Assembly: GCA_013115135.1 (NCBI GenBank)
Contig: JABANP010000116.1
Span: 1-64,000, forward strand
Direction: 5' to 3'
DNA: 64,000 nt
DNA from: Perkinsus olseni
Lineage: Eukaryota; Perkinsozoa; Perkinsida; Perkinsidae
Shown: piece by piece, positions 24,121-62,404 of the stretch
Layout: each line of letters starts with the position of its first letter
Position numbering within the stretch: position 1 is the stretch's first letter
The notes under the pieces: generated by a model
Databases searched by the model: none
What the model was told of the DNA's origin: nothing
Seen by the model: the letters and a program-made list of their open reading frames with translations, nothing else
Translations under genes and position numbers: made by a program

Positions 24121-24834
24121 CCCACGAGTTGTCACTGTACTGAACGATCTCACCGCTCGAAACTCCTGCTATGCAATGTAAAGTATGCATTACTACCTTC
24201 TTGGTGTCGGGAGCCGGAAGAAAAAAGCGGCAGCTCTCGTCGCGAACGATCCATCCTCTGCTGCTTCTTCCCTCCCTTCGTAATTACAGTAATAATTATC
24301 ACGTAGATGATGATCGGTGATCAACCCCGAAATTTCGCCGAACCCACAAGCCTCATGCTCTGGCGGCTTTCCCTGCATCTTACGAATCCAACATCAGCAT
24401 AGGTCACAACCAACCCTTCAACATCTCCTCCCCAATTTCAAACAAAGTCATTCCTTATGCTAGAGTTATGCCATTTTTCGGGAGCTCTTTTTGTACGAAA
24501 CCGCTCTATACGTAAAGCAGCCAGTCCTTGGTGCAGCCGCCAAACACATAGTGACAAAAGGTCAGCCGCATCACAATAAACCACCCCCTTGTTGCCTATA
24601 GGCTATAAACTACGGCAATATAGTAGACCTTCTGAGGAAGTGGGCAGGTGCTCCTGATGAGGTCAAGATTGGCACTCCAGTAAGACAACCCCGCATGCCA
24701 CTATTATGGACTTGAAAAGGAATCCTTTGTTGATCACGATGTCCACCACCTAGAGAAATGACTGATGCGGCCGCTGGTGACCGCGAATCATTCAGTAGGC
24801 CAGTTCGGTTCGGACTCCAAACTCCAAACTTTGG

Positions 24835-24854
24835 AGTATGCCATACTCAGTATG
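24835..24854. repeat. Five-part hexamer insertion, X=AGTATG
   Basis: AGTATG, C, CATACT, C, AGTATG without mismatch. An adjoining odd palindrome with 8-bp arms is at 24821-24837. Confidence 0.85.
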
Positions 24855-24986
24855 GCTCGGGAACTTCGGGAAAAGCGACTCAATAGCCTTGTTCAAATCA
24901 TAAATTAGAGTATCCGCGGATTCATCTCTGGTCCAAAATGACGGTCACGGAACTCAGCAGCAGTTTGGTATTAAGGCTCAATAAGA

Positions 24987-25006
24987 TGACACTGTGTCAT
25001 CGACAC
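24987..25006. repeat. Five-part hexamer insertion, X=TGACAC
   Basis: TGACAC, T, GTGTCA, T, CGACAC; the last copy has one mismatch. Confidence 0.65.
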
Positions 25007-25030
25007 AGTAGGGTGAGGCTAACGATGTTA

Positions 25031-25050
25031 TAGGGAGTCCCTATTAGGGA
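25031..25050. repeat. Five-part hexamer insertion, X=TAGGGA
   Basis: TAGGGA, G, TCCCTA, T, TAGGGA without mismatch. Confidence 0.85.
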
Positions 25051-25598
25051 CTACGGTAGGCCTCGTCGAAGGAAAGATAAGCTCGTACAGCTAGGCCAGT
25101 TAAGCTGGTAGACAATTTCCGACAGGCTTTTGAGTCATCCCATCTGCGGACACATAGTCCGTAACGTGTCAGAAATTTGACAATGAACTCCTCGGGGCGT
25201 CCGTGGAATGGGAGGGGGGTAGACTTGCGTGAGGACTTGATGCTGAAGTCGATATCTTTTCAGTGGCGGGCTGCCAGACTCGGGCATGGTCATGAGGGTA
25301 TGGGCTCCACTTGTTGTAACTCAATAGCCCATAGGATATGGGAGACTGCTCTCATTACACAATGTGAGGAACAATACAGTACAGCGCAATCGATACGGTA
25401 GAGCTATGGGAATTGTGTATAGGAGACAGAAGTGACAGATTATACAACAATATCATATACTTGCTCATCATCTTCGGTAGACTCTATCGGGTGGAGACGG
25501 CAAGATTGTTCAACTGCTCGATAGTATCTCGCAACTGTGGAAGCACCTTCCCTATGTGTAATCGCGCCCTCCGAAGCTATTCTTTCATAGATGCCGGA

Positions 25599-25655
25599 GA
25601 GTGGAATTCGGCTGCTGAATACATACAGTATGTATTCGTCAGCCGAATTCCACTC
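25599..25655. repeat. Long odd palindrome, 28-bp arms
   Basis: Arms 25599-25626 and 25628-25655 about a single central A, with two mismatches. Confidence 0.8.
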
Positions 25656-25981
25656 TGTAACATACTGGATTTCCTCCGGAGTGCGATCCTCCGGGCGTTA
25701 GGACTCGACTCGATGGGGGTAACACTAAAGGCCACAGTGATGAAAGTCGACATCTTATTTGAACTTTCTATACATTCGGCCGCGGCTTCAAACCTGGTCA
25801 AACCGTTATAAACTTGACCGCGGCGTCAACCTTTTTTAGCCAAAAGTTTTGGCCCAGGTTCGACTCCCTGAGTGGATCGGAAATAAGAGCAACGGCCTTG
25901 GAAAGGTACAGCAGGCAGTGAGAGAGATGGCTGAAGCATGCGCGGCCGATTTTCGTCCGGCTGTATGAAGGAGTGGGTATC

Positions 25982-26175
25982 CGAGTTAGTGGTGTACGGG
26001 ATTAGGTGAGAACGAGTTTAGAAACACGGTTGGAACTGTACGAAACGATACTGTTCTGGCTGGCAATGTACCGAGGGCAACTGTACCAGTTGAAACTGTA
26101 CTGGCCGCCGGCCAGTGGCCGAAACTGTACTGGTGGGCACTGTACCGAAGGCCCCCTGTACGAGATGTTCACTCT
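25982..26175 (+). repeat. Array of about 15-bp units with CTGTAC cores
   Basis: CTGTAC recurs at 15-base steps. Translated on + it gives LYETI, LFWLA, MYRGQ, LYQLK, LYWPP-like pentads. Confidence 0.6.
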
Positions 26176-26606
26176 GCACTTTTGCTGGTGCATCTGCTCC
26201 GTACGCTGTGTCGATTTCCCCCTTTCTTTGTAAATTATTTGTGGGTGATTAGATGTTTTTGATTGGCGAGCTTGCTAGCTTGCTGTTCCACTAAAGAACT
26301 CCAATGCCGTTAGCAGCGGCCCTTGTGCCTGCATGCGGCTCCTGTGGTGTACGCGCGCATAAACTGCGTCGTGCGCCCCAGGCACTGTCCGGAGTGTAAC
26401 GAGATGAGTTGAGGCTGTATCGAGTGAGACTGCCGGCATCTGGGACTATAACGACGCGGTGTCTGTGATGAGTGAGCCTCAGGCTCAGTAGACCTTCGTG
26501 AGGTTCCGGAGAGTGATGATGAAGGCCCTCAGCCTCTTCCAGTTCGGCACTTGACGAGACTTTCAGCTCCCCTTGCTAAATCCTCGCCTCCTCTGCCTGA
26601 GGCGGG

Positions 26607-26626
26607 TACTGTGACAGTACTACTGT
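26607..26626. repeat. Five-part hexamer insertion, X=TACTGT, breaks an ORF
   Basis: TACTGT, G, ACAGTA, C, TACTGT without mismatch. Discounting 14 bases restores the frame of the gag-like ORF. Confidence 0.9.
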
Positions 26627-26752
26627 CCCCTCTGTTGGACGTGGGAGTGGTGGTATTCGTGGTGTTCCGTATAGTTACGAACACCCGGGTGACTTTTCGG
26701 TGAAGTACGTTGACGCTCCTGACCATAAGGCTCGTTATTCTTGGGTTTCGAA

Positions 26753-26772
26753 TCACTGGCAGTGATTCACTG
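26753..26772. repeat. Five-part hexamer insertion, X=TCACTG, breaks an ORF
   Basis: TCACTG, G, CAGTGA, T, TCACTG without mismatch. Discounting 14 bases restores the frame of the gag-like ORF. Confidence 0.9.
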
Positions 26773-27243
26773 CTATCCGAATTCTCACGGTCCTGGTAAG
26801 GTTTGGCGTGAGAATTTTGCTTCACAGCGTGAGACCTCGGGTGACGACTGCTAAGCTGGCCTGGTTCATAGCGACCTTGTGAACGACTCCCTTGTTGGTC
26901 GGGTTATAATGTGTCAAGGAATCTTGAATTCCACTGGTGACGCTCACGATGATGTTTACTTACCTTTGGCTTCGGCTTTACTTCGTTATTGCTACGAGTG
27001 TTTTGCCTATCCTTATCTGGTTAGTTATCATTCCAGACAGGCTAGACCATCGGAAGCAGTAATTAATGGTGCTAACCTGCTTTTTGGTGCTGTGAAGTTT
27101 ATTCAATGGACTTCATTGTTAACAAGCTCTACGAAGATTGCCGACAAGCGGCTTTATCTTTGCTTTTAGACCTTCGGGATACTTGTTCTTTTCCGCTATT
27201 AGCATCACCTACCACCATCTAAGAATGTCACCGCCGCCTCTAC

Positions 27244-27263
27244 TGGTGAGTCACCAGTGGTGA
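27244..27263. repeat. Five-part hexamer insertion, X=TGGTGA
   Basis: TGGTGA, G, TCACCA, G, TGGTGA without mismatch, just after the decayed gag-like ORF. Confidence 0.85.
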
Positions 27264-27479
27264 CGATCTAGCACCCCCCAGATCAGGTTGTCTCTGTGGT
27301 GATCCCAGTGCCTAGAGGCTCCAAACACGAATGGAGCCAAGTTGAATAGGTTGGGTATCGCATGGGCGGTACTTTGTCGGAGTTGAGCAGGAGTCTTACA
27401 GGTGAGTAGGTTAGGAGTTCATGCTCGTATTCGCGAGGTGGTGGGTTCCTTTCCTCCGGCAAACATTTTCGTGTCGTAG

Positions 27480-27745
27480 TTCCATATGTACGAACCACTA
27501 TTGGACGAATGAATTTTTTTCGAAAAGATCGTGGCCGAATAGATCACCACGAGCATATCTTTGGATCAACCGCCCATGCACGAAGTAATCGTGTCCGAAA
27601 CCGGTTATGGATGAAACAATCGTGACCGAAACATACACTTTTTCGATGTACGAAAAGATCATGAATGAACCGAAATTTGTACGAAACAATCTTGGACCGA
27701 AGCTGCAGTGGACCAATCGATCATGGACGAATCGCGGTACACCCG
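27480..27745 (-). repeat. Array of about 15-bp units with CGAAACAATC cores
   Basis: CGAA/ATCGTG units recur at about 15 bases. The - strand reads FGPRL, FRTNF, FGHDY, FVHGR, FGHDL-like pentads for about 70 codons. Confidence 0.6.
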
Positions 27746-28338
27746 TTTTACAGCCCTTTTCGTAATTCTGATGGTGGCTTCAGTGGTCTTACTGTGGAAG
27801 AAGACCGTTTCTGTTTTCTCTTGGCCCATGCACGTCTTAAGAATCTCGAACAATATTATGAAGGAATGATATGATATTAAGGAACGATATTCCTTTGGCT
27901 AAGTTCGAAGTCTATAAAATGAGTGGATTAAGACGACCTTGGAACAAGTCATTTCTGCCCGCAAGAACCCTTCCAACAAGACCTTAGCTTGATGTCATGA
28001 TTTTTATCCTTGAAACGTTCATTGGTTCGTTAGACCTTGTTTTGCGGAATGGCGTCAAGCGAGGTATGTAGACATTAGGAAATGGCCTTAAGTTCACTTG
28101 ATTCCTTGCTTCCTTGGATCGCTTGACATTCCTCACCTCGGTCTGAAGCAGACGGTGCTCCATGGATTGACCTTCGTCCCCCTGTAGCGTGATCGAACTC
28201 GGTGTCACGTCACCTTCCGTACTACGGAATCCGTAGGTCACGCACTCCAACTCGCCAACTGCATTCCTTTTGGGGAACTGTGCTAACCTTACGATCTTTG
28301 ACCGGGCGTTGAGTTGATTAGTGAAGCAACGATCTTGG

Positions 28339-28372
28339 TCACTGACAGTGACTCTGAGTCAGTGACTCACTG
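28339..28372. repeat. Nested five-part insertions, X=TCACTG then X=TGACTC
   Basis: The inner event (28349-28368) is TGACTC, T, GAGTCA, G, TGACTC. Discounting its 14 bases leaves TCACTG, A, CAGTGA, C, TCACTG, a second complete event. So one insertion landed in another. Confidence 0.85.
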
Positions 28373-28619
28373 TAGTCTTGCGCACTTCCACAGTCTACAA
28401 TAATGAGTACAGTACGCGCAGTCTAGGGAATGCAAAACTGCTCAGCGCGAGAACTCCTGAACACTCAGAACCCGGGGGTGGTATTAAGGAGTGGACCATT
28501 AGTTACCCCGCAAAAGAAAATGCCTCCAAGTTGAATGCTATTTGAAGCTTCGGGCGTGATTGCCAGTGAGAGACTGCGCAGATAGTGGGGTTTTCCAGTT
28601 CTGGGGCCTGAATATTCCT

Positions 28620-30390: not shown

Positions 30391-30554
30391 TAGGGGGTAC
30401 AGGCCATAGGGACAGATCAGCCACAACGATGTATCACAATAGGCAGTCATTGAAGAGGCGGTTCACTACACCCCTGGATGAAAGTGGCTGCCCTATCAGG
30501 TAACGGGGGAGGAGGGGTTTCGGGTTCCCCTTCCACGCTCCACCGCAATGTTTT

Positions 30555-30574
30555 TTCTGTCACAGAAATTCTGT
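30555..30574. repeat. Five-part hexamer insertion, X=TTCTGT
   Basis: TTCTGT, C, ACAGAA, A, TTCTGT without mismatch. Confidence 0.85.
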
Positions 30575-30595
30575 GGCCCCGGGTCAACGAGCCTA

Positions 30596-30615
30596 TCTGA
30601 AGTTCAGATTCTGAA
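30596..30615. repeat. Five-part hexamer insertion, X=TCTGAA
   Basis: TCTGAA, G, TTCAGA, T, TCTGAA without mismatch, 21 bases after the previous one. Confidence 0.85.
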
Positions 30616-31087
30616 CCCGGCGTAGAATAGTTGAGAGAGAATAGGATCGAGATTCTAATGTTCATTTCCACTGAGAGTTCGGGTTGCCGTTTCAGATTAC
30701 TGAACTGTTGTTGGCAACCATGATGACTCAATAACGTAACACTCCCGGATCTGATGCAGATACCGTCTACTGATAATATAGACTTTATTATATAGTTGAG
30801 CGACTGGACCAGCGATAGAATAGCCGAGGCTGTACTCTGATGGTAGTAGTAGTTGATAGTATCAACTTGATACGACGGACGGAATACTCACTCGCAGAAG
30901 GAGCGAGGAGCAGAGCAGATCGGAAAATATTGGGGAATTACTGCAAAGACAAATAGCTACTCACTCACAAGCGCACACAGTCACAACAGCAGATAATCGC
31001 ACCAAATGTCCAGCGCTCGGACTAGCAGTTTCAGACTCGGCAACATGAAACGGTTGTGCCGCGCTAGCCGCGATAATCGATACTTAT

Positions 31088-31600: not shown

Positions 31601-31792
31601 TGTTGGAGCCAGCCACACTTTAGGTGGCACCTATTAGGTGCGGTGGCAGCCTGTAATTCAGAAGATGCCGCTGCTCTCTAATGGCGGTGGCAACTCGGAG
31701 GAAGGAAGACAGCAGCTGAGGAAGACCGCAGCAGCTGGCGACGGAAGAGGTTTTTGAAGATCACTACTGAGTAAAATTGGCGTGACAGCCGG

Positions 31793-31828
31793 CGCTCTTA
31801 AAGAGCACAAAGAGCGGCTCTTTGTGCT
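31793..31828. repeat. Odd palindromes with GCTCTT hexamer
   Basis: GCTCTT, A, AAGAGC at 31793-31805, followed by 12-bp arms about a central G (31804-31828). Together they look like a five-part event extended by a longer inverted copy. Confidence 0.7.
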
Positions 31829-32619: not shown

Positions 32620-33672
32620 CTACAATAGGTAGGGCTGACACCGAATAAGTCTGGAAGGCCCAGAAATGTACTTCTCGGTGCCGCAGAAGCTCCAGCGGTC
32701 AAATATTATCGGGGTTCCTTTAAGAATAGACAAGCTGCGCTTATGAATAACCGCAACTTTTCTGAGACCAGTGGGATGGCGTAGTACGTAACGATCACCG
32801 CCTTCGTCCAGTAGCAGCAGGCCAAGACCCGGAGTGTTATTAAAGAGGGTCCCTTGTATCTTCCGAGATGCCACAATTTCATCCTTCCGTGTGTAGCTCA
32901 CAACACACGGTGCTCCGAGTAGCATTGGACTGTCCGACACGACAACGTTGATTCGGACTGACTGCCACACTGAGTTGGACTTGCAGAGGAGATCGACAGC
33001 TCGAGGAGAACGAGGCACCGGGGCAAAGGTAATGAAGGAGAAGTTGCCTTTATCAGCGAGGTAAACTGACCTCACACCATCTGTCAAATCCAATCGTAGC
33101 CAGAAAACTTCAAATGCACCGTTCGGTCCGCGGGTTCCTATAAAGACGGCGTCATGAACGACGATCATACCAGCGATCTCGCCACCACACGAAGCCAGAT
33201 GAGGGATGCTGATTGGCTCCTCCGTCTTCCCACTTGCCATGTCGTGCTGTAACAACACACCACCATTATTATACAGCACATACAGCTTCCGGGTATCCTC
33301 ATCGTAGTAGCACTTGAAAGACTTGTTGCCGGTCGCATCAGTACAGAGTGCCGATACCTCAGTGGAAGAAGGCGTGAGGTCCTTAGCAGCACAGATGCTA
33401 TACAGTCTGATGCATTCTTTGCTGCTGTTGACCTGGTACACGACGCCACAGTCGGTGAATGTAAAGATATCAGCAAAGCACTCGCCAACGAGTATCTTTT
33501 CAGTAGGGCAATCCAAGGTCAGCTCTGCCTTCCTGCAGTACCCCATGATATCCCCCATGAGGTGATGCATCGGCTCCCTACCCTGCTCACCATCCCATAG
33601 CCTCTCGATGGCCATACAACGGAGGGCCTCAAAATGATGGGGGAGTTGGAAGAGGGCCATTACACGATACAC
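32620..33672 (-). CDS. Unknown 350-aa protein, tandem copy 1
   Basis: A single-exon frame from ATG 33672 (MYRVMALFQLPHHFEALRCM and onward) to 32620. It is closely related to the protein at 35299-36324: the first 60 residues are nearly identical (IERLWDGEQGREPMHHLMGD), with LQHDMASGKT and FDRWSF blocks shared further on. Repeating strands (RKLYVLYNNGGVLLQHD, GEIAGMIVVHDAVFIGT, NFSFITFAPVPRSPRAVDLL) resemble beta-propeller blades, but I cannot assign a known propeller family. There is no signal peptide. The start is supported by alignment to copy 2. A five-part insertion lies 16 bp upstream of the ATG and is absent from copy 2. Confidence 0.65.
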   Translation of the reverse strand: MYRVMALFQLPHHFEALRCMAIERLWDGEQGREPMHHLMGDIMGYCRKAELTLDCPTEKILVGECFADIFTFTDCGVVYQVNSSKECIRLYSICAAKDLTPSSTEVSALCTDATGNKSFKCYYDEDTRKLYVLYNNGGVLLQHDMASGKTEEPISIPHLASCGGEIAGMIVVHDAVFIGTRGPNGAFEVFWLRLDLTDGVRSVYLADKGNFSFITFAPVPRSPRAVDLLCKSNSVWQSVRINVVVSDSPMLLGAPCVVSYTRKDEIVASRKIQGTLFNNTPGLGLLLLDEGGDRYVLRHPTGLRKVAVIHKRSLSILKGTPIIFDRWSFCGTEKYISGPSRLIRCQPYLL

Positions 33673-33707: not shown

Positions 33708-34553
33708 TGGCCGAGACTAAGAGTATTAAAATCCCCTATTTGTACCACTCAACTCGACGCTGCTGACAGTAGAAAACTATTCCCTCAAATCTTTGTTGAG
33801 ATTCTCGGCTCAAATGAGCCGTCGCGGAGTAGCATCCTGAAACCAGCCATCGGATGAGAGCCGCTCAGCGGCTGCCGCTGTTACTCATTATGCGCCGACC
33901 GTCTTGTCCCAAGACTCTCGTGTATGCCTGCATAGCTGATTCCCCTCGAGAGAGTAAGCTTAGAAAGTAGAAGACTTTACACCCCTTGTCGCCTTGCGTT
34001 GACTATGAGCAACAAGAGAGAAGCAACAAACGCTGATCGCTGTAGCTCAGCCACGTCACGGGTAATGTCACATCACCCAGTGGATGACACCCACTCTCAC
34101 TGTCACACCAACGTGTTGGAAAAGTACGCTGTTCCGATGTACTTTTGATGCCGGTAGAAGACGAGAGGTGCAATGTGGACAGTGTAATCAAGTGCGGCTT
34201 GACGGCTCGCGAAGACGAAGTTCCTCTACAAGAGAGATACACAACAAGATGGCAAGGGAGACTATTCTCGGAGAGATTACACGGCGGGGGTTTGGGAACC
34301 ATCAACTACAACGCACAAGCTACTGTACTTTATAGACAGTGTAGCAGTTGAAGCACTCATGCAACTAGCCTCTCCAGAGCTCACAAGAGATTCGCGAACC
34401 GGATTGTGGTATTGTCTCCGTCTCCTAACTAAACGCGCTCACTTCACAACCGGTACTGATGTTTATCTCTTAGTAAAATTTGCATTGTTTAATTTGGTAT
34501 TGGTAACCTGCTAACTGAGGATTTGGTCCGGAGTGCCCCGCGGAGAACTTCGT

Positions 34554-35298: not shown

Positions 35299-36324
35299 CT
35301 ATGATAGATAGGGGTGGAAGCGTATCAAACTGCGGCCAGGTCCGGACTTACAGATGATACTAAAACTCCATCGACTGAATACTATCGGAGCAGTTCGAAA
35401 TAAATCTCTCCCAGCCTTATCAATTGTCGCCACCCTTCTGAGCCCTCTAGGATGGCTCGAAAGGAGACGTGGGAGTCTTATCTTCCGACGCTTCACCCCC
35501 TCATCTATCCGGGCACTGAACAGCATCGGGTTGTCTGACCTGATGATATCGATCCGGACTGAGTGCCAGATCCCCTTGAGCTCGTAGAATATATCGATGG
35601 CTTGTGGTTGATGAGGCACCGCAGTGAAGCCGATGAACGAAGACCTGTGCTTCAGGAGCTGGCTGTCTACCTGGTGCTCCTCATTGGTCACCGTGTAGAT
35701 GAGTCTCACTTCCTGAGGTTTGGACAGGCGCACAAGCAAAACCTCGATTCCTTTGGGGTCGCAGTCCTCGTCCAATAACTCCATCCCAACATACAGCCTA
35801 TCATCAATAACGATCATACTCGCTAGGTCGCTACCACGCCAAGTCAGGTGAGGAATCATGATAGGTTCTCCCGTCTTTCCGCTCGCCATGTCGTGCTCCA
35901 AGAGCTCTTCGCCATCATTACACAAAAGGTACAACTTGCGAACATCGGGATTATAGTAAGCTCTCCAAATATAATCCTCGGAAGCATCATTATAGAGGAT
36001 AGTTCGCTCATCAGTTCCCACGGCGCTCATGCAGAGTTTAACCTTGTCATCGGGATCAGGGGAAATCTCGTAGACGATTCCGTCGTCCATGAACACGAAG
36101 TCACCCGAGAGCTCCTTGTAAACAAGTATCTCTTCAGTAGGGCAACCCAAGGTCAGCTCTGCCTTCCTACAGTACCCCATGATATCCCCCATGAGGTGAT
36201 GCATCGGCTCCCTACCCTGCTCACCATCCCATAGCCTCTCGATGGCCATACAACGGAGGGCCTCAAAATGGTGAGGAAGTTGGAAGAGGACCATTACACG
36301 GTACACTGGGGAGGACAAAAGCAC
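35299..36324 (-). CDS. Unknown 341-aa protein, tandem copy 2
   Basis: Paralogue of the 32620-33672 protein, same strand, 1.6 kb away. From 36324 it reads MLLSSPVYRVMVLFQLPHHF; alignment to copy 1 suggests that the first seven residues may be non-coding and the start may be VYRVM-adjacent. Shared blocks: GYCRKAELTLGCPTEEILV, LLEHDMASGKTGEPIMIPHL, FSRWSF. The sequences upstream of both copies also match (ACTCATTATGCGCCGA near 33885 and 36615), so the duplicated unit is about 3 kb and includes the promoter. Function unknown. Confidence 0.65.
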   Translation of the reverse strand: MLLSSPVYRVMVLFQLPHHFEALRCMAIERLWDGEQGREPMHHLMGDIMGYCRKAELTLGCPTEEILVYKELSGDFVFMDDGIVYEISPDPDDKVKLCMSAVGTDERTILYNDASEDYIWRAYYNPDVRKLYLLCNDGEELLEHDMASGKTGEPIMIPHLTWRGSDLASMIVIDDRLYVGMELLDEDCDPKGIEVLLVRLSKPQEVRLIYTVTNEEHQVDSQLLKHRSSFIGFTAVPHQPQAIDIFYELKGIWHSVRIDIIRSDNPMLFSARIDEGVKRRKIRLPRLLSSHPRGLRRVATIDKAGRDLFRTAPIVFSRWSFSIICKSGPGRSLIRFHPYLS

Positions 36325-36693: not shown

Positions 36694-37626
36694 CCTCTCC
36701 ATCCCCTGCCAGGGAAAGACTTCAACGACAAAGACATGCGATTTGCCATGGACGAATCCGTGATATAGCCGGATGGGCGACGAATTGTAAGAGAATAACT
36801 GGTGTCCCCATGCGCTCACAAAGATCAGTCTCTATTCTAGGACTATGGTCATCGCCCATCCGATCCTGGCCATCACAGACTATCATCCGCCGCTGATAAT
36901 GCCCATTATAGTCACTGCAACATAACTTGCGCATGGTTCATCCCAAGGTACCTTTTTCGTCAGGAGGTGAATCCAACCGGGACCGCCTTTTTCTCGCTGG
37001 GCGCCGTGATCGGTTTCGCCGCTTTATTTCAGCTTGAGCCCAGCGGCCTCTACAATGGACTTTGAAATAGCTCTCTCCTCGTCCCACTCTTCTTAAGACC
37101 TCTTTCACTAACCTTTTAGGAATGACGAATCTTAAGGTAAGAGCCCTCACCTCACAAACATAAGCAACCTCTGAAAGGGTTTCACGAGTCCCTCAGCCGT
37201 GAGTGTAAGGAGACAAACCTTAAAGAGCAACGATAAGTGCGATCTTAAGTACGGACTAAGCGTCATCTTAAGATCTATTAGACGACTTGAGATGGATGTT
37301 GCGCGCAATGCGGAATCCCCGCGCTGCACAAAGATCCTATCGAGCTTTTTTGATCGAAAAAGCGCTAATCAGGAAAACACTGTAATTTGTAGGATCCTGG
37401 AGGGTGCATACTCACGCGGCCTGTGAACCGTGGGTTATAGTTTCCAGCGGAGCGTAGTAAGGCACTTCCACTCACTTTTGGGGGGAGGTAAGGCCGGGGT
37501 AAAGCTGATCGGTCGAGCCTTACCGTAATTTCAAGTAAATCCTTATCAACGTGGCGTAGTGGAACGAACTAACTTCCCAAGGTCTTCATACTACTAGTTG
37601 AGTTAATTGCAAATCAGGGAAGGAAC

Positions 37627-37646
37627 GTACGTGACGTACGGTACGT
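37627..37646. repeat. Five-part hexamer insertion, X=GTACGT
   Basis: GTACGT, G, ACGTAC, G, GTACGT without mismatch. Confidence 0.85.
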
Positions 37647-38023
37647 CGAATGCTCACTTGCCAATGATTCCGCGTGTCCTGAAGCCTTCACTCGGGACTC
37701 GGGGGCCGAACCTGACTTCAACGAGTGCAGAAGCAGACCTACAAAGACATCCTGGTTGTGGGGAAAAGTTGCACACAATTCTTTGCATCACTCCATGATT
37801 CCTTTTGTGTCTCTCCCTCGCTAGCGTAGCTTACCCGTTCATCTTATAACTCAAGCTCCACTGTAAACGAGTCTTGTTGCGTTATGGTAAGGCAACAAGA
37901 ATCGTTTTTCAATCGAACACTGCTGTCTCTCGAAGAGTCGCACTAGCGGGGGGCACAAAGTCGCTAAGATCTCTTCTATTGCTGTGGGGCAACGGTCATT
38001 CCCACGTAGTGAACTCCCTCCGT

Positions 38024-40013: not shown

Positions 40014-40421
40014 ACCGGCGAGGAGAGGACGAAGAGATAATACACCTACAAGAAAGAAGCGATGTGTCTCCCTAGAGAAAGCCGTCGGCTGCTACTGAGA
40101 TTAACAACATCGGACTTGATTCATCTGAATGAAAATAAGCGGTAACATGTCATGCAGGAATACACAAAGTGAGGGAGGATGTACCACGTGTTACAGCTGC
40201 TGTTGCTGTCGTATTCGGGACTGTGTGAGGATAGAGAATACTCGCCGGTGGGAGAGCATGAAAGAGGCCCAGCAGGAGTAGGTGTTGAGTCTCTGACGGT
40301 GGAGGACGGAGAAGGGCAGCAGGCAGGAACCTCGGGAGTGGGCCTGACCTGACCTGACAGTAGAGCTCCGGCATCGAGAGGGTCGAAGGCTGAAGCAGTG
40401 GAGCGGCGCCGTGGGCAGAGT

Positions 40422-40552
40422 AATCAAGAAGGAGGGGCTTCCCTATCAAGAAGGAGGGGCTTCCCTATCAAGAAGGAGGGGCTTCCCTATCAAGAAGGAG
40501 GGGCTTCCCTATCAAGAAGGAGGGGTTTCCCTATCAAGAAGGAGGGGCTTCC
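40422..40552 (+). repeat. 22-bp tandem repeat, six copies
   Basis: Unit TATCAAGAAGGAGGGGCTTC plus CC, nearly identical copies; one copy has TTTCC in place of CTTCC. The unit is not a multiple of three. Confidence 0.9.
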
Positions 40553-41122
40553 ATCTTGGTAGGGACGATGAAAGGGTTCGATCTGGGAGTTAGACTCGGA
40601 TGCCCACAGAGGTGAGGTAAGTCAAGCCGGCATGGTGTATCGAAGGAAGTCGAAAGAGCCGTGAGGAGAGGAAAGAAGGAGGCAACGCTACCTGACACAC
40701 TCATTTCGCTCACGACTGAATACATCACACTCGAGGAAGGGCAACACGCACGCGTGCACACAACCCCTCCGAGCTTGAGTTGTTTCATATCTTTCAAGGG
40801 TCGACCTAAGATACGCCGCTATAGGACGAGCTCAGCGGAAGAGACTCCCGCTCAATGGGAAGATGCGCTGCAACGCGAATGATCATCTATTCTGCGCTCG
40901 CCGATCTAATCGATAATCTTCATTTGCGTTAGCGCAGGTTCGAATCCCAGGCCCGGTATTTTTCTGTCATCATTCTTGGTGGCCTTCATAGATCTGTCCT
41001 GCCAGGATCGTCTTTCACACGTCAAAATGAATGCCAGGAGTGCTCCTGAAATTCCGAGGAGACACTTCTATTGACCACCCTCATTTACCCAGTGAGCGGC
41101 AGTTTGAAGAAGCGTTTTGTAA

Positions 41123-44610: not shown

Positions 44611-44939
44611 GATGTAAGATATAATAGATGGTCACTAGGTGATGTGCTGGTCTGAAGCTCTGGTCTCAGTACTTGTCACACAGAAAGGCCTATCTACGAG
44701 AGGGCGACACACATATGAAAGCTCCTTATATGGGTTCATCCGCCCGCGTTATTTGGTTCTGAGGGACAGAGCGCTTTCAAACATTCCGGAGCTCCTCCTC
44801 AGTAGTCTCTCTGGTATGATACCGGACGGAATTCACTACAAAGGCGTACAGGGTTAGCATGCTCGTCGGGAGTGGGCAAGATACTCATTTCGATTGACAC
44901 TAAACCCAACTAAGGATAGCAGCTTTGGCAACACATTCC

Positions 44940-44959
44940 CAGAGAGTCTCTGGCAGAGA
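44940..44959. repeat. Five-part hexamer insertion, X=CAGAGA
   Basis: CAGAGA, G, TCTCTG, G, CAGAGA without mismatch. Confidence 0.85.
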
Positions 44960-45419
44960 CTGCTGACAATGACCTGAGATGACTGATGAAGTTGGTTGGG
45001 GTGCCAACATAACATAAGAGCTTCCTCCAGGCAAGACTCGTAATCGATCGTTGAACGCATATGCACAGAAGCTACGCTTCGGTACTCGGCGCTCGCCATT
45101 CCTTGATAGGGCCAGTGTAAGTGACTGGCTGCTTGAGACCACAACACCCGGGTTTTGCCACGTGGAGTCCGATCTCTCATCTGCTGTCTTCTAATCATCC
45201 GCCACTTAGCTTAACTTCAGTGTAGCTTCTTGCCGGAGCAAATGTCTACGTCGCTGATCCTATCTGTTTTCCAGTATGAAATGTCACATTACAGGAGTCC
45301 CTCAGACTCCCTGCATACTCATGCACGCGAGGGCAAGGCGCATAGAGAAGTCAGATGACTATCTGATACTGATGATACGTAGTAGCAGTAAAGGTAAGTG
45401 TCACTATAGTGCACTTGTT

Positions 45420-48492: not shown

Positions 48493-49669
48493 GAAACTCC
48501 TCTTAGGCAGTTCATTTGAGGGATGAAAGTGAATGTAAGAGGTTTGGACTGTAACTTTGTATCAACCCCTCACCTTGTTTGCCGATGCGACGACGGCGAT
48601 GCCGTTGTTGTCCTCAGTGAGGACGAACTTCGTATCAAACTTTCGAAGGTTGGTGCAGGCCGAGGTTGGTCGACTCAGTCGAAACACCCAGTCGACTTAC
48701 CGTGACTTTCTCGATGCTCTCGAACCTTGATACGCGAGCATTTGAAAGTTAGGGTTGCTAACGTTTCCCCGACAGGTCACGAACGGTGACTCACGATACA
48801 CATGTGCCTTTGCAGCTATGCAAAAAAATATTACGGTACAAAAGTGGACTTGTCCTGTGGGTATACGGTTCGGGTGACGGAAATCTATCGGCCTTAGCCT
48901 TGTTCGGACTTGTTGTTGCGCGACCTCTGGATAACCGATGCTACAGCGATGTTATCAGTGCCAAACATCGGAGATCCTATAACGAGAGAGAAGACTATAA
49001 TACCACTCGAGGTTCGCTGATCGAACTTCGCTCATACTAAATATTTCTCAAACCCGCCTCTTATTAGATGGGCTCCTTTCCGACTCCACCAAGGATTGCA
49101 ATAGCGATATGATTGACGGAAAGTCCTTTTCTAAAGAAGCTTTGTGTTGGCAAGTTTTCAGGCGTATTCACCAGCGACAAGCGAATATGAGACGAAAAAT
49201 ATCCTTCTCGAACCAGAAGTTGCCAATTTCTGGTAGGTCAAATTGGAACAGCCATTTTTGGCAAAAGGAGTTTCCGGTGATATCTCTTGTGAAACGGTTG
49301 ATCGACTTAGACTTGTTCGCTGTTTGGGTTCTGATTTTCTGATTTCTGATTGAGGTATGATTCATCACAAAACTCTGTCATCACAAAACCCCCAACGAAA
49401 TCACGAACTGTCCTGACAATGTGTGAGGGAGAGGTGGTCAGACCGCGAGCCGAGTGGGTGGCCATGCTTGTTGAGTATTGCTTGACGGATGGCAATGATA
49501 CTGACCGCTGATTGGGCTAGACACCCGCTCTGACGATTTGAGCTGGCAGCTTCCGTGGTCCACACTGTCGACTCCACAGACTGTACTACAGTCACTGTAG
49601 AGGTGAACAGTTAATTACGCGCATCGCAGCCTTTGGCCGCGCTTCACCCTCTTATCGATCTTGCACAGT

Positions 49670-50111: not shown

Positions 50112-50200
50112 CAGGACATCATGTCCTGGAGAAAATTATGGAGCTCCCATGTCCTGGACATGGGAGCTCCATAATTTTCGTTGATCCGATCAACTTGATC
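50112..50200. repeat. Chain of palindromes: GGACAT, 24-bp arms, TTGATC
   Basis: GGACAT, C, ATGTCC near 50114; then perfect 24-bp arms 50131-50154 and 50156-50179 about one T; then the five-part TTGATC, C, GATCAA, C, TTGATC at 50181-50200. Confidence 0.85.
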
Positions 50201-50524
50201 GGAACATCCACATTCATCTTTCTCTGGACTTCACGTTCGGAGGCTGGCTGGTTCCCGAAGTCCGAGAATGGACGAAATGTTACATCAGGAGGATTCAACC
50301 CTCGGGGGATTGGCCTGCTTGTTTCTCGCATCCTTACGCTCGCATTCTTGAGTATGCGTGCTAGGTCATGATCGAGATTGACTCTCTCCCGTACTCGAGC
50401 AATCAGAAAAAGGGCCGTACGTCGAGACTGATATGTAGTCTCGGGAGATCTCAGTGTATCGAGCTACAGAATGAACAGCTACAGTGCAAGTTTTCCGCCT
50501 CCACGACGTAATTTACGCTCACCG

Positions 50525-53353: not shown

Positions 53354-53364
53354 ATTTTGCTCGA

Positions 53365-53643: not shown

Positions 53644-54684
53644 ATGAGCTTTCTCGGAAGAGCTTGCCGAGTCGCCTCTCCCTACAGAGGTATCTTCGCC
53701 ATCACTCGACCGGCTCGTGGTGGAATGGGTTCAGGCTTCGGTACTAATACCACACCAATCGCAACTTTCATGATGGCATCCTCCTAGGTACCAGCTACGC
53801 TCACGACCCGAAGTGGATCGAAGACTGGATGTCCAGGAAGCGCGTAGGGGTCGACCGAATGGGTAGGTCGCCGGCGGCCCTCTGCTGCTCACCCTCTGTC
53901 GATGGTCCCCCTCAGATTGGTTCTTCCGAGCCTTCAATCGCCTACGTCTCTACGAGCTCTTCTTCAAGTCTACTCCACGGTAAGATCTTCGTGCTCCCGA
54001 CCTCTCGTGTATCTTTCTTCCCTCTACCTCTCGAGAATCTTCCATGCTCCAACCTCTCGTGTATCTTTCTTCCCTCTACCTCTCGAGAATCTTCCATGCT
54101 CCAACCTCTCGTGTATCTTTCTTCCCTCTACCTCTCGAGAATCTTCCATGCTCCAACCTCTCGTGTATCTTTCTTCCCTCTACCTCTCGAGAATCTTCCA
54201 TGCTCCAACCTCTCGTGTATCTTTCTTCCCTCTACCTCTCGTCTATCTTTCTTCCTTCTACCTCTCGAGTATCTTCCATGCTCCAACCTCTTGTGTATCT
54301 TCTATGCTCCAACCTCTTGTGTATCTTCCATGCTCCAACCTCTCGTGTATCTTTCTTCCCTCTACCTCTCGTGTATCTTTCTTCCTTCTACCTCTCGAGT
54401 ATCTTCCATTCTCCAACCTCTTGTGTATCTTCCATGCTCCCACCTCTTGTGTATCTTCCATGCTCCAACCTCTCGAGTATCTTTCTCCTCCCCAGGTTCT
54501 ACGCGTTCATGGTCATCGGCGGCCTTCTCGGCTCCTACTACTGGAGTCGCTTCTGGGAGCACTACTGGATCCGAGTCAACAAGGGGGTAAGCAGCAAACG
54601 GTCCCAACCGCAGCTTCGCCCATCCGTTCTCTTCAGCGCCTTTACAAGGACGTCCCATACGTCTACCCGCCGCAGGAAGAGTAA
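53644..54684 (+). CDS. QCR9-like subunit of mitochondrial complex III, five exons
   Basis: Exons 53644-53689, 53788-53862, 53916-53979, 54496-54586 and 54637-54684 join in frame into 107 residues. A single membrane segment (FYAFMVIGGLLGSYYWSRFW) is preceded by RLYELFFKSTPR and followed by NKGRLYKDVPYVYPP. The order Y-x-x-F-F-K, helix, W-x3-W, N-x-G-x-L-x-K-D matches QCR9/UQCR10, the small subunit that packs against the Rieske and cytochrome c1 helices. The N-terminal extension is longer than in fungi or animals. Another alveolate respiratory-chain subunit is the alternative. The first intron has GGTA at both ends. Intron 3 is a tandem introner array. The stop TAATG overlaps the next ATG. Confidence 0.6.
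54005..54485 (+). repeat. 52-bp tandem introner array inside the QCR9-like gene
   Basis: Units alternate TCTCGTGTATCTTTCTTCCC and TCTCGAGAATCTTCCATGCT. The GTATCTT and CATGCTCCAACC parts match the reverse hairpin introner. Four regular 52-bp units are followed by rearranged shorter ones. The array is open in all + frames by chance of composition, giving spurious long readings. Confidence 0.85.
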
Positions 54685-55365: not shown

Positions 55366-55651
55366 AATCCGAGTTTGCTTCGATCGCTCTGGGTGTCATC
55401 AATATCGCCACCAGTTATGTCATAATTGTTATGACTCTTAACGGCTGAGCGCTTTTGGTTTCGGGATTCTCAGACTGCGGTTTTGCGGTAGCGGACCGAA
55501 CGAAGGCTCATCGCGGATGCTCCGCGGACCAGAAGTGAAAGAACCTCTTTACTCAGTGTTTGGCGGCTCAACTCACAACGAGCGCTGTGTAAGACGTTGA
55601 GACTAATAGTGTATATTAAGATCTATAAAATCAGGTATACGCTGATTTATG

Positions 55652-55671
55652 GTATTATTAATACCGTATTA
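55652..55671. repeat. Five-part hexamer insertion, X=GTATTA
   Basis: GTATTA, T, TAATAC, C, GTATTA without mismatch. Confidence 0.85.
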
Positions 55672-55905
55672 ATCCCAACGGCGAGGATGAGTCATTTTGA
55701 ATGGCCTTATGGGAGGGATAGGGACGAAATGGAAGTTAACGGAGCGGAGACTAACGAGCCGCTGAAGGGCGGCTACAAAAGGAATCCTGTTGGCGACAAA
55801 TGGCCAGAGAATGGCCGTGCCTCGTCCAAGATTGAGAAGAAGAAGATTTCGTAAGAAGACGTATTGTGTCACGTATCTGTTATTAGGGCACTGATACAGG
55901 TGGTA

Positions 55906-55925
55906 TCAATATTATTGATTCAATA
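55906..55925. repeat. Five-part hexamer insertion, X=TCAATA
   Basis: TCAATA, T, TATTGA, T, TCAATA without mismatch. Confidence 0.85.
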
Positions 55926-56721
55926 AACAATAGGGCATCATGTAAGTTACAGGCGTTGAGATCTCGAGCGGCCCAAGTGTCCTCACTAGCACGTCGTGTC
56001 CCACGGCCCTTGAAGTCTATGAAGGACCTCAAAGGGGAAAATCTACGCAATACTCACGACTCAATCACCTCCGTCATTTGGGAAGGAAGACCCTGTCCTG
56101 GGTGCAGTAAGTACGTCGCTGAGCTCTAGCTGTGAGTCCTCTGCTGTTGCCTTCAGTTATTGTCGTGAGAGTTTATGATATTATTTCAATCTATTATATT
56201 TTATTATTATATTAATATCTGTATCTACTACGACTAATATTATGTAGTTCTACCTATTTACACTATTATTTATACATTCCTAAGGTACTTAAGTTATATA
56301 GTAATGTTGGCAACTCAGTTGAAAGCTGAAAGGGTGAGCAGGGCGACGCTACAGGAGGCTTCCGATAAGACTCGACCTCGCCAGTTCGGTCATCGTTACT
56401 CACTAGCCGACAGCTTGTAGCAGCTTCTGCGCACCGTAGAAGGCAAGCATGTCTATAATACTTACTACTGATTGGTGGCATGTGCTGCTTGCGGGCGTTC
56501 GTCTGTCTGTTTGGCTGCCTAAGGCCATTGATGAACGGTCGTCACTTGTGATCAGTATAATCTACCATCTCAGACGTGAATAATTCCGTTACCACTCAAA
56601 GATAACTACTAATTTTCAGCGCTGTTCACTGGTTCTGGTTTCGGGTTTCTCGTTCCTGCCTTCACCCGCAATTCAGGTTTTCTTCTGTTGCTTTTGCCTG
56701 TCTGTCGCACGCGCTTCCTTG

Positions 56722-57762: not shown

Positions 57763-57781
57763 GAGATACAAGTTGTATCTC
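57763..57781. repeat. Odd palindrome, 9-bp arms
   Basis: GAGATACAA about a central G at 57772; perfect. Confidence 0.7.
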
Positions 57782-58011
57782 GTCAGTTCAGAGTTGGGTT
57801 CCATATCCCGGAGTTATTAATCCGTGGACCCACATTCTCGCTGCAATATTCTGAGGCGGCTAGTTATGGTGGTTATCACTCGAACAGTTCTAATCGAATT
57901 TCAGAGTAACTCAACAAGATCCAGCAAATTGAACTTTCATCTCACGAATCAGGCGACGTATTAGCACTGGTCGCAGCACAGATTAACTAAAACTTCACAA
58001 TGTGGACGAGG

Positions 58012-58049
58012 ATGGACTGTCCATCATGGACACACAGTGTGTCACACAC
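58012..58049. repeat. Two overlapping five-part insertions, X=ATGGAC and X=ACACAC
   Basis: ATGGAC, T, GTCCAT, C, ATGGAC (58012-58031), then ACACAC, A, GTGTGT, C, ACACAC (58030-58049), both without mismatch. Confidence 0.85.
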
Positions 58050-60501
58050 TATCTGGAAGTACAGGGTATATACACTCAGCGGGCTGCCAACATTGATTTG
58101 CCCACATTTATGCAACCGGCAAAACTGTTGAGCGCGACGCAAGACCAATGGAGAGCGAAATTCTTCACGCGCGGAGCGCGTTTAAGATTTGATGGCCCAA
58201 GCGTGCGTTTCATGAAATTTCATGAAATTTCAGCATGAAATTTCGCTTTCATATTTCACAGCGCGTCCACCCCGGTTTTGGCACACGCTGATTGGTAGAC
58301 AACAGCGTAATCCATAGCGTGATCGATATTATCGCACACAGTGACGTATGCACATAGTTATATCCGTCTTTGTGGCCTCTTGTTGTGTCCACAGTGCGGA
58401 ACGGCAAGCGAACTACATAACATTCCGAGCACGCCAGTCCGGCGGGGATGGCCTAACTGGCAGTTCTCGGCAGTTCAAGCCGAAACGGGCACCGTGCAGC
58501 ACGGTCCGTGCTCGTCCCAGTGTGTTAACAGCAGGCGCTCCGCTCTCTTCCGGGTTGCCAGACATTGACAGAACCCCACAATTCAGAACTCGAGCCAAGA
58601 TGGCTACGGACTGACATATAACAATCTCATCGAAACTGATCGCACAACAAGCAACCAGTGTTACTATAGCTAAAAGGGTGCACACTGAGATTGGGAGATA
58701 GACAACAATAAGGCATTCCTCGTCCCAGTGGTGCTGTATATTAATGCAAATCCTGCTCCGATGCACACGACCCACCCTAAACTCGTCGAACTCGACTCGT
58801 CCCGCCCTGCCGATGATAGCTGTGGCTATTGGACTACGAGGCAACAGCAATGCACAGAACGAGTAAGTCCAATACCAAACAAAACCCCCGGGTGGCTGAG
58901 GGTGGGCAAATTTTGTTACGCTCCGTCTATGTTTATGCGTGCAGAGTAGTCTGGGCGACAGCTCCTTCATAAGATCCATCTCACAAGCTCCCTTCGGCGC
59001 TGTGTTCCACGAATGAGTATGTGTAGGTCAACATGTTGCGCGTAGCGTAAAATAGTGGTGCGCCCGGGAGTTGATCTTTGTGCGTGCAAATGTGTACACA
59101 ACCGTTTCGTCGACCGCCTCGGGTGTCGCGTTTCTTATGGCCAAGGAACTCGGCATATATTCGTGTCTCACTTAGATTTGTGCCTCTCTGACATGACTCT
59201 TTTTCGAACCCACCCTCTACCACCCGGGAGGAGACCGGATACCGCCACTTCATGGCGCGTCGAGCGTCACTCGGACAGCCGTGAAAGAGCTACCATCGTG
59301 AGCGATTCGATCGAAATGCTCTACGTGGCGTTCACGCCCACGCTGCTCTAGGATGACTCATCCGATTAGTGCACGGTCCTCGGCCTCGTGTTACGCAGTT
59401 ATGACGGTTCAGGCATTTCCACCGTCACTCCTGCGTTCCACCTCTCCCAAACTCGCGGGAAGTAAAGCGGTTTTTAAGAACAATACAACTCTGCCTGCTC
59501 CTGTCGGCCAGTTTTCAGCTGCGACAGATCGATTGCTCACTTTTTCCTCAGAAAAGGACCTCCATCGCGCATGTCATCCTTTATTCTGATGTTTCCAACG
59601 GTTGGAGACTCCAACCCGAACTCCAACGGTTGCAGTCGAGCAGGCTATTCGTCCCGCCCAACGGCAGCCATTAGTAGCCGTTCAACGGCTCCTAATGTTG
59701 GTTCCCAATCAGCTCTATCGGTTGACGCCTGACGTACTGCCGATGTTTTGGTATGGTGATCGCCACTGGGCCGGTCCCACCGGCGGCTCGCCGCGACCAA
59801 GCGCTCAATTTGGCAAGCTCAGGTTGAAGATGAGGCATTCGAGTGTCTCACCTCGAGAAGCCGAGAAAATTTCTCATCTGACGACTTTACCATCCCAACG
59901 TCCCTCAACCTGTGCTCCCTTCCTTATCGTCTGAGTTGCCATACAGTGCTTGGAATGGCGAACGAGAATCCAATCACTAGATCAGTGTGGTACGCCAACG
60001 GCGTCACACAGTAAACTGCGATGAATCCCGGCATTTGAAGTACTCGAGTCAGATTCGAGGAGAGTGAGAGATGAGTCGTAGGTGCGGCAGGGTTGCCTCT
60101 GAGAGAATCTCACGCCGCTCTTCTAGCGAAGCGTCGCACAAGCGACCGATTCAACGTCTCAAAGAGCCTCACGGAGAAGATCAATCTGTGCTGAGTCAGT
60201 CATCAAGAGTGGGGTTTTCTGGCCGAGTGGTAAGTCGACTGGACAACTCAAGACGCGAGTGATGATGATACTGCTGAAGTTCTCTAGAATGTGTCTTCGA
60301 AGACACTGATCATGACTTAACCTCACATTGTGAGGTCATCGACGATTCCACCTTATGCTTAGTAACATGATTAGCAAGAAGGTGAACCGAGTATCACAAA
60401 AAAAGCTGTGAGCACAGCATGGTGTAACCAGTCATGCGTACGCATGCGGTTCACAAAGGAAGCTCTTTGCTGGAGCTTCCAGCGCAAAACTAGCGCGTCG
60501 T

Positions 60502-61410
60502 TCAGGAACGAAATAGTTCATCCAGAAACGTGGTACCGGTCGGGTTGTCGACATATGAGACAAACAGCTTGTCCAACTCTGCGTCGTAGAAAAAAGTCAC
60601 GTCGAATTTGAACAGCGGTCTTGATTGAGTTAAGTAGAAGCTAGTCGCGTCCAGAGTAAAGCCGAGGGGAAGCTTGTCGAGTTCCAGCCGAGTAGCACCA
60701 GACTTGTACTCGAAGGGAGTCGACGACTTCCCAGAAACCACATACTGGCCCAGCCTGCGAACTTCGTAGTCAGCGGTCAAGCGCACGTCGTGAGTAGGAC
60801 GGAAAGAGTGGTCATATTCCCCTGCGGGAACGGGGCTGCTGTTGTCGACCCCTTGAAGGGCTCGCGAAGAGTTTACCGGCTTCGTCTGGCAGTTAGTTCT
60901 CAGAGAAGCGGCCCGTTGGCATTGCTCGGTAGTGAGCGTGTACAGAATCTCTCTATCCGCGTCGACCATATTCATGGTATCGTCGTTCTCAGCATCGCCC
61001 ACTAGACGGAAGCCTAGCTCGACGTTGGGGAACGGATGGTCGTTTTCAGTGAAGCCTTGGCGCTTTAGTGAAATCTCACCGTCTCTCTTGACGCTCACTT
61101 CATCATACCCTATAGGGCATGATGATATCAATCATCATATCTGTATCAGATAGGTCATCAGGTATCAAGGTATATCATGTCCTTGATATACCCTATCAAC
61201 CCGAATACCCGAATACATCGTAGAGTCGTAGTCGAAAATAATGCAAGCATAGAAGGCGGGTTTGAGAAAGCCCACCTGTTGCAGCCCACAGTATTTTTTA
61301 TCGGGTGTGAGAGACTCAACCTTCACTGAGAACAGGACGCAGGCAATCGCGAAGAGTTGGGTGAAGAGCATCGGTTGGGATCGACAAAACTTTACTGAGC
61401 GGAGAATCAA
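60502..61410 (-). pseudogene. Family B copy broken by a palindrome-rich insertion
   Basis: From 61410 the copy reads MLFTQLFAIACVLFSVKVES and KKYCGLQQVGFLKPAFYACI up to FDYDSTMYSG. It breaks at about 61105-61205 and resumes with YDEVSVKRDGEISLKRQGFT through LYTLTTEQCQRAASLRTNC to the stop at 60502. The break replaces about 20 residues of the intact 46128 protein with about 90 bp of nested inverted repeats that bring stops. The C-terminal half is otherwise open, so the lesion is recent. The segment is an inverted duplicate of 45420-46946. Confidence 0.75.
61105..61205. repeat. Nested inverted repeats disrupting a family B gene
   Basis: CATCATACCCTA/TAGGGCATGATG, TATCTG/CAGATA and GGTATATCA/TGATATACC follow one another inside the broken gene. 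The intact copy at 46128 has only CTATAGGGTATGATGATG at the matching place. Confidence 0.7.
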
Positions 61411-61503
61411 CGAGTGGGACCTCAGCGTTGCCGGAAGCTCCTCTTCAGCACAGCCGAGGAGTTATTCAAGAATATATTGTCATGCGGCATCACTGTATGC
61501 AAT

Positions 61504-61546
61504 GTATCGGATTCGAGTGCATGACTCGTGCACTCGAACCCGATAC
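61504..61546. repeat. Long palindrome, sister of 45953-45995
   Basis: Arms of 18 bp with one mismatch about TGACTCG; same position relative to the family B gene as its sister. Confidence 0.8.
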
Positions 61547-61935
61547 AGTGTTGTGGGGTCGAGGAAGAACTGGGATGTAAAGGTAGTCGAGGTTCAGGAA
61601 AAAGAGCTATGCTAAGCTTAACTGCTCATAGCGGGAAGAACGCATGCGCTTGCACGCCCGCTGTAAGGTACACGGGATGCAAGTCTGGAACTGGTGAATC
61701 ATCAGAGGGGATATGCCCTCTCGTTGGGGGCAGTTGTCACGATAGTCCAATAGCTGAGCAAGTCGAGTTAATGTATAGCTCCCTCCAAGTCCACCATGGA
61801 CATTATTGCGGTTGCCGGTACCAGAGGTTCACCTAGGGGACACCTGACTGTCCCGAGTGTGACCCTGGCCGCGCCATGTACAATCTCCCATCACGTCCTG
61901 GAGGCGGCGAACTAAGTTCGGACTTGCAACTCACC

Positions 61936-61955
61936 GTGTAGCCTACACGGTGTAG
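61936..61955. repeat. Five-part hexamer insertion, X=GTGTAG, copy-specific
   Basis: GTGTAG, C, CTACAC, G, GTGTAG without mismatch. The sister segment near 45560 has a single CCACAC/GTGTGG. Confidence 0.85.
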
Positions 61956-62060
61956 ATACGTTGAGAACTCCCGAGACTGCCGATCTTCCAGTACGGTCCT
62001 TCTTCTTATTTTTCGTCTACGAAGGTCAAGGAGAGGGGCACTTTCGATCGCGACTTAGCA

Positions 62061-62095
62061 CGCATAGTATGCGTCGCATACAGTATGCGGCATAC
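62061..62095. repeat. Two overlapping five-part insertions, X=CGCATA and X=GCATAC
   Basis: CGCATA, G, TATGCG, T, CGCATA (62061-62080), overlapping GCATAC, A, GTATGC, G, GCATAC (62076-62095). The sister segment near 45448 has one GTATGC only. Confidence 0.85.
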
Positions 62096-62147
62096 TGACG
62101 TACGCGAGGGCAAGGACGGGGGAAAGACACAGAAGATTATGACGTCT

Positions 62148-62190
62148 CCTTGTCCAGGACAAGGACATACAGGACAAGTTGTCCTGTATG
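62148..62190. repeat. Odd palindromes with TTGTCC hexamer, extended event
   Basis: 8-bp arms about A at 62156, then 12-bp arms about G at 62178; both perfect. Confidence 0.75.
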
Positions 62191-62265
62191 CGCAGCTGTC
62201 CCGGCGCATTTCAACGCTGTCCATTGGGATTCTGAATGATATAGTTCTAATGAGGTATCTGTTGC

Positions 62266-62285
62266 CTCGCGGCGCGAGGCTCGCG
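62266..62285. repeat. Five-part hexamer insertion, X=CTCGCG
   Basis: CTCGCG, G, CGCGAG, G, CTCGCG without mismatch. Confidence 0.85.
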
Positions 62286-62367
62286 CAACTTACGTCAAGT
62301 TACTTGACTTAAAGTCACAATGTGTTGCTTCTCCATTGTTGCTCGTACTACGAGCTTGTGTTGCAAC

Positions 62368-62404
62368 ACTTGTGTTGACTACGAGGCTCGTAGTCAACAC
62401 AAGT
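62368..62404. repeat. Odd palindrome, 18-bp arms
   Basis: ACTTGTGTTGACTACGAG about a central G at 62386; perfect. Confidence 0.8.

Follow-up and report, generated by a model that had tools for sequence, protein, structure and literature searches.

A 64,000-nt stretch of the genome of Perkinsus olseni (contig JABANP010000116.1, positions 1 to 64,000; hereafter, the window) contained many 22-bp sites of the form Z[1-7]+rc(Z)+Z[2-8], in which Z is any 8-mer and rc(Z) its reverse complement. Each of these sites is very probably the scar left, after repair, by excision of a hAT-type DNA transposon. The genome record established the empty site Z, the 8-bp unit, the complementary one-base centres of the palindromes, the existence of variable scars, the target preference, and the presence of a resident element.

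An earlier note on this DNA had described the sites as a hexamer (X) followed by one base, its reverse complement, one base, and the hexamer again, and all 19 of the hexamer sites that it listed were found at their positions. This loose form, X-n-rc(X)-n'-X with X = 6 and spacers of 1/1, gave 34 matches in the window, spanning 17517 to 62266, and thus also lay upstream of the extent first claimed (24821..62404). Its geometry was specific: hexamers with spacers of 0/0, 2/2, or 3/3 gave no match in the window, and with 1/1 spacers there were 5 matches for X = 5 and 1 for X = 7. Higher counts for shorter units with unequal spacers, such as 37 and 36 for X = 5 with spacers of 1/3 and 3/1, arose because sites of the exact form were re-read in a different register. 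The single bases were constrained, n being the complement of the base following the last X and n' that of the base preceding the first X. Because both are fixed by their neighbours, the unit is 22 bp built on the 8-mer Z, and this stricter form fitted 29 of the 34 loose matches (Table 1). Its absence from 100 dinucleotide-preserving shuffles of the window ruled out a chance origin. Twenty 10-kb pieces from outside the window (200 kb) contained 34 strict scars versus none in 20 dinucleotide shuffles, and extrapolation from the samples gave a genome-wide number of roughly 10^4. The sites were not copies of one repeated element, each Z being seen at most twice among 91 exact sites (redundant loci included). 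The view that each site is a 14-bp insertion lacking any fixed sequence was borne out. No Rfam match reached the gathering score in the window.

Empty sites, with a single 8-mer between the flanks and 14 bp shorter, were found in paralogs (24 matches for 18 of 108 scars tested). These represented approximately 15 distinct places, some matches being one place in overlapping or orthologous loci, and displaced control strings gave no empty-site match. The 8-mer at the empty site was Z in 20 of the 24 matches; the earlier reading of each site as a hexamer plus 14 bp was thus correct in its arithmetic but not in its ancestral unit, which is an 8-mer in the paralogs. When four duplicate pairs were aligned, 14 bp was the commonest indel longer than 2 bp in two of them; the pair L028/L031 (73% alike) had two 14-bp indels, but four 4-bp indels. 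Several candidates for a filled site were rejected: three proposed by machine were judged by position to represent either tandem copies or the scar in question; a 297-bp insertion in C92, C557, and C103 had the ends GGGCCTATTTCA...TGAAATAGGCCC and a duplication of approximately 3 bp, and belongs to another family; and a 305-bp difference between the window at 56301 and C370 had no 8-bp duplication by eye. The 297-bp element (loci L046, L047, and L048) was missing from the window copy.

The palindromes within the scars had a characteristic geometry. In 274,000 bases, 279 perfect palindromes had a one-base centre and arms between 7 and 28, versus 15 in one Markov shuffle, the next largest excesses over the same shuffle being 32 versus 9 for spacer 0 and 40 versus 12 for spacer 3. 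Pairs of overlapping palindromes were then counted in the same bases with a window array at 40401-40600 masked (200 bases); the scans detect a scar only if its 6-bp core is intact and would miss trimmed footprints. The exact spacing accounted for 64 pairs with complementary centres and a 6-bp core, longer spacings for another 10, and spacings of 3 to 5 for 5 more, whereas the shuffle mean for these spacing classes together was 0.7; twelve such hits at spacings 1 and 2 (5 and 7) were left out of the counts. Other core lengths were at or near chance, cores of 4, 5, 7, and 8 bp at spacings of at least 3 giving 17, 9, 3, and 0 pairs against shuffle means of 17, 4.7, 0, and 0.3. At exact or longer spacing, 74 of the pairs with a 6-bp core had complementary centres on either side; 2 pairs were mixed, and no pair had identical centres. 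Since a 6-bp core with one base lost per side corresponds to a duplication of 8 bp, the target duplication expected of a hAT footprint is implied by the exact form and by the 10 variable scars, and the empty sites hold the single 8-mer. The palindromes were centred on the complement of the base that would have bordered the element, which is the one-base hairpin offset of hAT footprints. In the variable scar at 62147-62190, the insertion relative to C12/C192 was 29 bp, that is, 10 + 13 + 6. The 6-nt stagger proposed in the earlier note did not hold, because the long unequal palindromes of the rarer scars independently give a duplication of 8 bp, each hairpin having lost one base at its tip.

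In the raw two-palindrome scan with a minimum score of 13, 268 of 269 hits lay off the exact spacing, mostly with a shared core of at least 11; these long-core hits came from tandem arrays, mainly at L042 ~2000, the window ~40400, and L020 ~8400, and were set aside. Fifteen raw hits had a 6-bp core, with centres complementary on both sides in 10. There were further excesses of identical centres at short spacings and of mixed centres (58 at core 4/spacing 9, and 132 at core 5/spacing 8); we tentatively attribute the mixed peaks to exact scars read in other registers and the identical ones to tandem or simple repeats. Tandem arrays of the window lay at 53985-54486 (26/52-bp units), 42128-42411 (50-bp units), and 40423-40552 (22-bp units).

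With strands pooled, Z was G-rich at position 1, T-rich at position 2, and pyrimidine at position 3, with the mirror image at positions 6 to 8. T2 occurred together with A7 in 14 of 65 non-redundant sites versus a background of 6.0% (P about 3e-5). This agrees with the target preference of Hermes and other hAT elements, nTnnnnAn within an 8-bp duplication (PMC10368747, PMC2803484). The scars avoided long six-frame reading frames, which were used as a stand-in for genes: of 65 exact scars, 1 lay in frames of at least 250 aa (10.2 expected), 5 in frames of at least 200 aa (13.6 expected), and 6 in frames of at least 150 aa (20.7 expected). Such avoidance is expected of a neutral scar, because 14 bp inserted into a gene would shift its reading frame and be disfavoured by selection. 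The first 17.5 kb of the window had no exact scar, and beyond it there was one per approximately 1.6 kb; other contigs were equally uneven. At 58011-58050 and 62060-62096 scars overlapped, a second event having taken place only bases away from the first, as if insertion hot spots lay in or around scars.

Domain matches suggested that the genome encodes hAT transposases: the hAT dimerisation domain PF05699 was found in at least 21 places, and PF14291 and PF05699 occurred together in one 581-aa reading. Five hAT-domain loci had one terminus in common. One complete resident element with an 8-bp duplication was found (L029, 982-2845; 1,864 bp), with GTCTGATG directly outside both ends; it starts with the terminus TAGAGACGGGCAAATTTACGG at 982, and the partner terminus ends at 2845. 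The element Ac starts with a similar TAGGGATGAAA. A 225-aa frame of L029 contained the hAT C-terminal domain, and a second frame examined had no Pfam match. A genome-wide pattern search allowing at most 3 mismatches found 19 termini of the L029 family, and a second hAT family (L031, L045) had its first 14 bases identical to those of the L029 family. At window positions 58744-58889, 146 bp were 100% identical to an inner part of L029 (1983-2128); this stretch was near-identical on C631, C549, C236, C908, and C248, with no match listed on the C370, C12, and C192 duplicates. A search of the PDB with the 668-aa hAT frame of L044 gave nothing at E 0.01. The genome had one Ku match, one match of the SNM1/Pso2/Artemis type (DRMBL), and one Mre11 match, so that candidates for hairpin opening and end joining exist.

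These features are explained by the following scheme, in which cutting by a hAT transposase and annealing of overhangs are the parts that we infer. A hAT element would enter an 8-bp site Z and duplicate it, giving Z-element-Z. The transposase would then nick each flank at a distance of one base from the element, and the 3' end so released would attack the opposite strand; Hermes likewise nicks one base into the flank. On departure of the element, the left flank would end as a hairpin of Z[1-7] joined to rc(Z), and the right flank as its mirror image. If a host nuclease opened the hairpins away from the tip, 3' overhangs would result, and because the two copies of Z meet in opposite orientation, these would be the complementary 8-nt overhangs rc(Z) and Z, whose annealing and sealing would produce Z[1-7]+rc(Z)+Z[2-8] with a net gain of 14 bp. 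Hairpins opened further out and joined without annealing would give the longer unequal palindromes. The polarity of opening is suggested by the centres, which were complementary in 74 scars and identical in none, as openings that leave 3' overhangs would make them. The scarcity of scars with fewer than 8 added bases fits annealing across the duplication, core-trimmed scars being invisible to our scans.

Several results weigh against this interpretation. No filled allele, with the element still present, was found for the 108 scars within approximately 0.3 Mb of the 61.5-Mb assembly, and C12 and C192 differed by 71 substitutions over 4.5 kb with no 14-bp indel. Neither strict nor relaxed scanning for terminal inverted repeats flanked by an 8-bp duplication found an element in approximately 320 to 340 kb; this zero is weak because L029, a real element inside the scanned set, was missed, its termini being different. 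The hAT loci L044 and L045 had no terminal repeats with an 8-bp duplication, and the L029 copy may be non-autonomous, as only the C-terminal hAT domain was recognised in it. Finally, hAT footprints in Candida were of 28 kinds in 128 (PMC5873905), whereas in Perkinsus one kind made up 64 of the 74 two-hairpin scars detected at the exact or longer spacings.

Other mechanisms account less well for the sites. In replication template switching, the polymerase would reverse onto the other strand, copy eight bases, and then return, as in small inverted triplications. In form the scar is a minute inverted triplication (Z, rc(Z), Z) with the same direct-inverted-direct form, and such events occur genome-wide with flanking duplications of at least 7 bp (PMC13334657); however, the published events are variable and much larger, with medians of 148/160/148 bp, 30-bp spacers, and broad sizes (PMC13334657), whereas the scars have a fixed 8-bp unit and one-base offsets. 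Neither variable units nor spacers of tens of bp were found, the 8-bp unit was kept even where the two hairpin tips lay far apart, and Z carried the hAT target bias, all of which make template switching very unlikely. The templated fold-back synthesis that the earlier note had offered is a much poorer match for the existence of variable scars, for a unit fixed at 8 bp, and for the target preference, and its other suggestion, a hairpin-capped and reopened break of the hAT excision type, stands as the best explanation.

It is equally improbable that the scars were left by another superfamily with an 8-bp duplication, such as Mutator-like elements (MULEs), Merlin, or one so far unknown. The MULE domain PF10551 matched 38 places in the genome, several of them within open frames 700 to 1,372 aa long that are possibly intact Mutator-like elements, and the duplications of Muta1 are 8 or 9 bp (PMC5225508). 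Against this, Muta1 has no apparent target preference and approximately 90% precise excision given flanking duplications, neither of which was the behaviour seen here, and the word 'hairpin' is absent from the text of that article (PMC5225508). The Merlin domain PF12762 had no match in the genome, and the sole complete element found with an 8-bp duplication was the hAT element L029. We also give very little credence to an introner-like or programmed-elimination element moved by a domesticated hairpin-making transposase rather than by a selfish hAT. The domesticated hAT Kat1 produces hairpin-capped breaks (PMC4763223), and the estimated number of scars far exceeds the resident elements found; but the scars shun long frames, vary among paralogs, and have no fixed sequence, unlike a programmed site, and a resident hAT family with near-identical copies is present.

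The footprints of Ac/Ds in plants, yeast, and Candida albicans resemble the scars in that they contain palindromic P-nucleotides attributed to hairpin intermediates, the palindromes being centred on the complement of the transposon-adjacent base, and in that microhomology is frequent in plants and yeast (PMC5873905). The earlier statement that no described element has this form was thus mistaken, since the site is a scar rather than an element and matches that published description. The footprints of Ac/Ds, however, come in many different kinds, with palindromes that are mostly short in Candida and at most 20 nt in yeast (PMC5873905), whereas in Perkinsus one full-length +14-bp product dominated (64) and shorter core-keeping products were few (5). 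Hermes and Kat1 similarly form hairpins on flanking DNA (PMC4763223, PMC2803484), and Hermes makes an 8-bp duplication with nTnnnnAn (PMC10368747, PMC2803484); these enzymes are known by biochemistry and the Perkinsus scars from the sequence record alone. The footprints of hAT excision are already known, and what is new is the uniform repair product and its scale. In V(D)J coding joints, too, hairpin ends opened off-centre leave palindromes (P-nucleotides); to our knowledge, however, there is no duplicated target on both sides in that system, and so neither rc(Z)-to-Z annealing nor a stereotyped length. In our searches of the open-licence literature, we found no description of a genome with one dominant full-length footprint, approximately 10^4 copies, and few matching residents.

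Table 1. Exact (22-bp) and variable scars in the window
Feature	Position	Strand	Remark
22-bp site	17516..17537	.	
22-bp site	17635..17656	.	
22-bp site	17771..17792	.	
22-bp site	18173..18194	.	
22-bp site	21071..21092	.	
22-bp site	21564..21585	.	
22-bp site	23311..23332	.	
22-bp site	24834..24855	.	
22-bp site	25030..25051	.	
22-bp site	26606..26627	.	
22-bp site	26752..26773	.	
22-bp site	27243..27264	.	
22-bp site	28215..28236	.	
22-bp site	30554..30575	.	
22-bp site	30595..30616	.	
22-bp site	30852..30873	.	
Scar, one base altered	31620..31641	.	Three paralogs (C598, C510, C423) show a 14-bp gap
Variable scar, two overlapping hairpin palindromes	31793..31823	.	+23 bp versus three paralogs
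22-bp site	33859..33880	.	
22-bp site	37626..37647	.	
22-bp site	44939..44960	.	
22-bp site	49579..49600	.	
22-bp site	50180..50201	.	
22-bp site	55651..55672	.	
22-bp site	55905..55926	.	
22-bp site	58011..58032	.	
22-bp site	58029..58050	.	
22-bp site	58491..58512	.	
22-bp site	62060..62081	.	
22-bp site	62075..62096	.	
Variable scar, unequal hairpin palindromes	62147..62190	.	Arms of 9 then 12, one-base centres, TTGTCC shared by both
22-bp site	62265..62286	.	
Complex scar	62341..62404	.	~44 bp longer than C12/C192; palindrome with 18-bp arm and one-base centre
Variable scar	63456..63526	.	One hairpin with a 30-bp arm; insertion of 40 bp, three bases unexplained

Other features were noted in the window and elsewhere in the genome. 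Frames at window positions 14514-15140 and 1914-2825 carried DUF3431 and an RMKL-like methyltransferase plus THUMP signal under the cut-off, respectively. Two related long reading frames lay near each other at 32620-33672 and 35299-36324; the former had no Pfam match, and DNA matches for the two were found on C20, C370, C12, and C192. The spliced-leader sequence CCGTAGCCATCTTGGCTCAAG, which lies in spliced leader 1 of Perkinsus marinus (PMC3101222, PMC9399869), had 85 genome copies, all with C at the position where C or T is permitted; dinoflagellates have T there (PMC9399869). The spliced leader thus by itself places the organism in Perkinsus or among its near relatives. The copies formed regular arrays, with steps of approximately 0.16 and 1.6 kb on C268 and of 3.4 kb on C41, C270, and C871.

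A class of footprint usually seen in reporter assays is present here as a genome-wide fossil record. Its signature is self-checking, since 14 of the 22 bases are dictated by the other 8, and insertion sites, target preference, and the polarity of hairpin opening can be read from the assembly alone; there is also a risk of taking such scars for palindromes with a regulatory role. The uniformity of the product suggests that, in this alveolate, hairpin opening leaves 3' overhangs of sufficient length for annealing across the duplication. Comparison of approximately 10^4 scars with 19 termini, counted for one family while others were possibly missed or lost, suggests a short residence per insertion. 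A more extreme possibility, which we consider doubtful, is that the element re-excises almost at once, maybe before the 8-bp target gaps are filled, and leaves a +14-bp scar but almost never a copy in place; once seven bases are filled, the 3' end is precisely the one that the hairpin requires. If so, such hit-and-run events would rank among the main kinds of small insertion mutation in the non-coding DNA of this organism.
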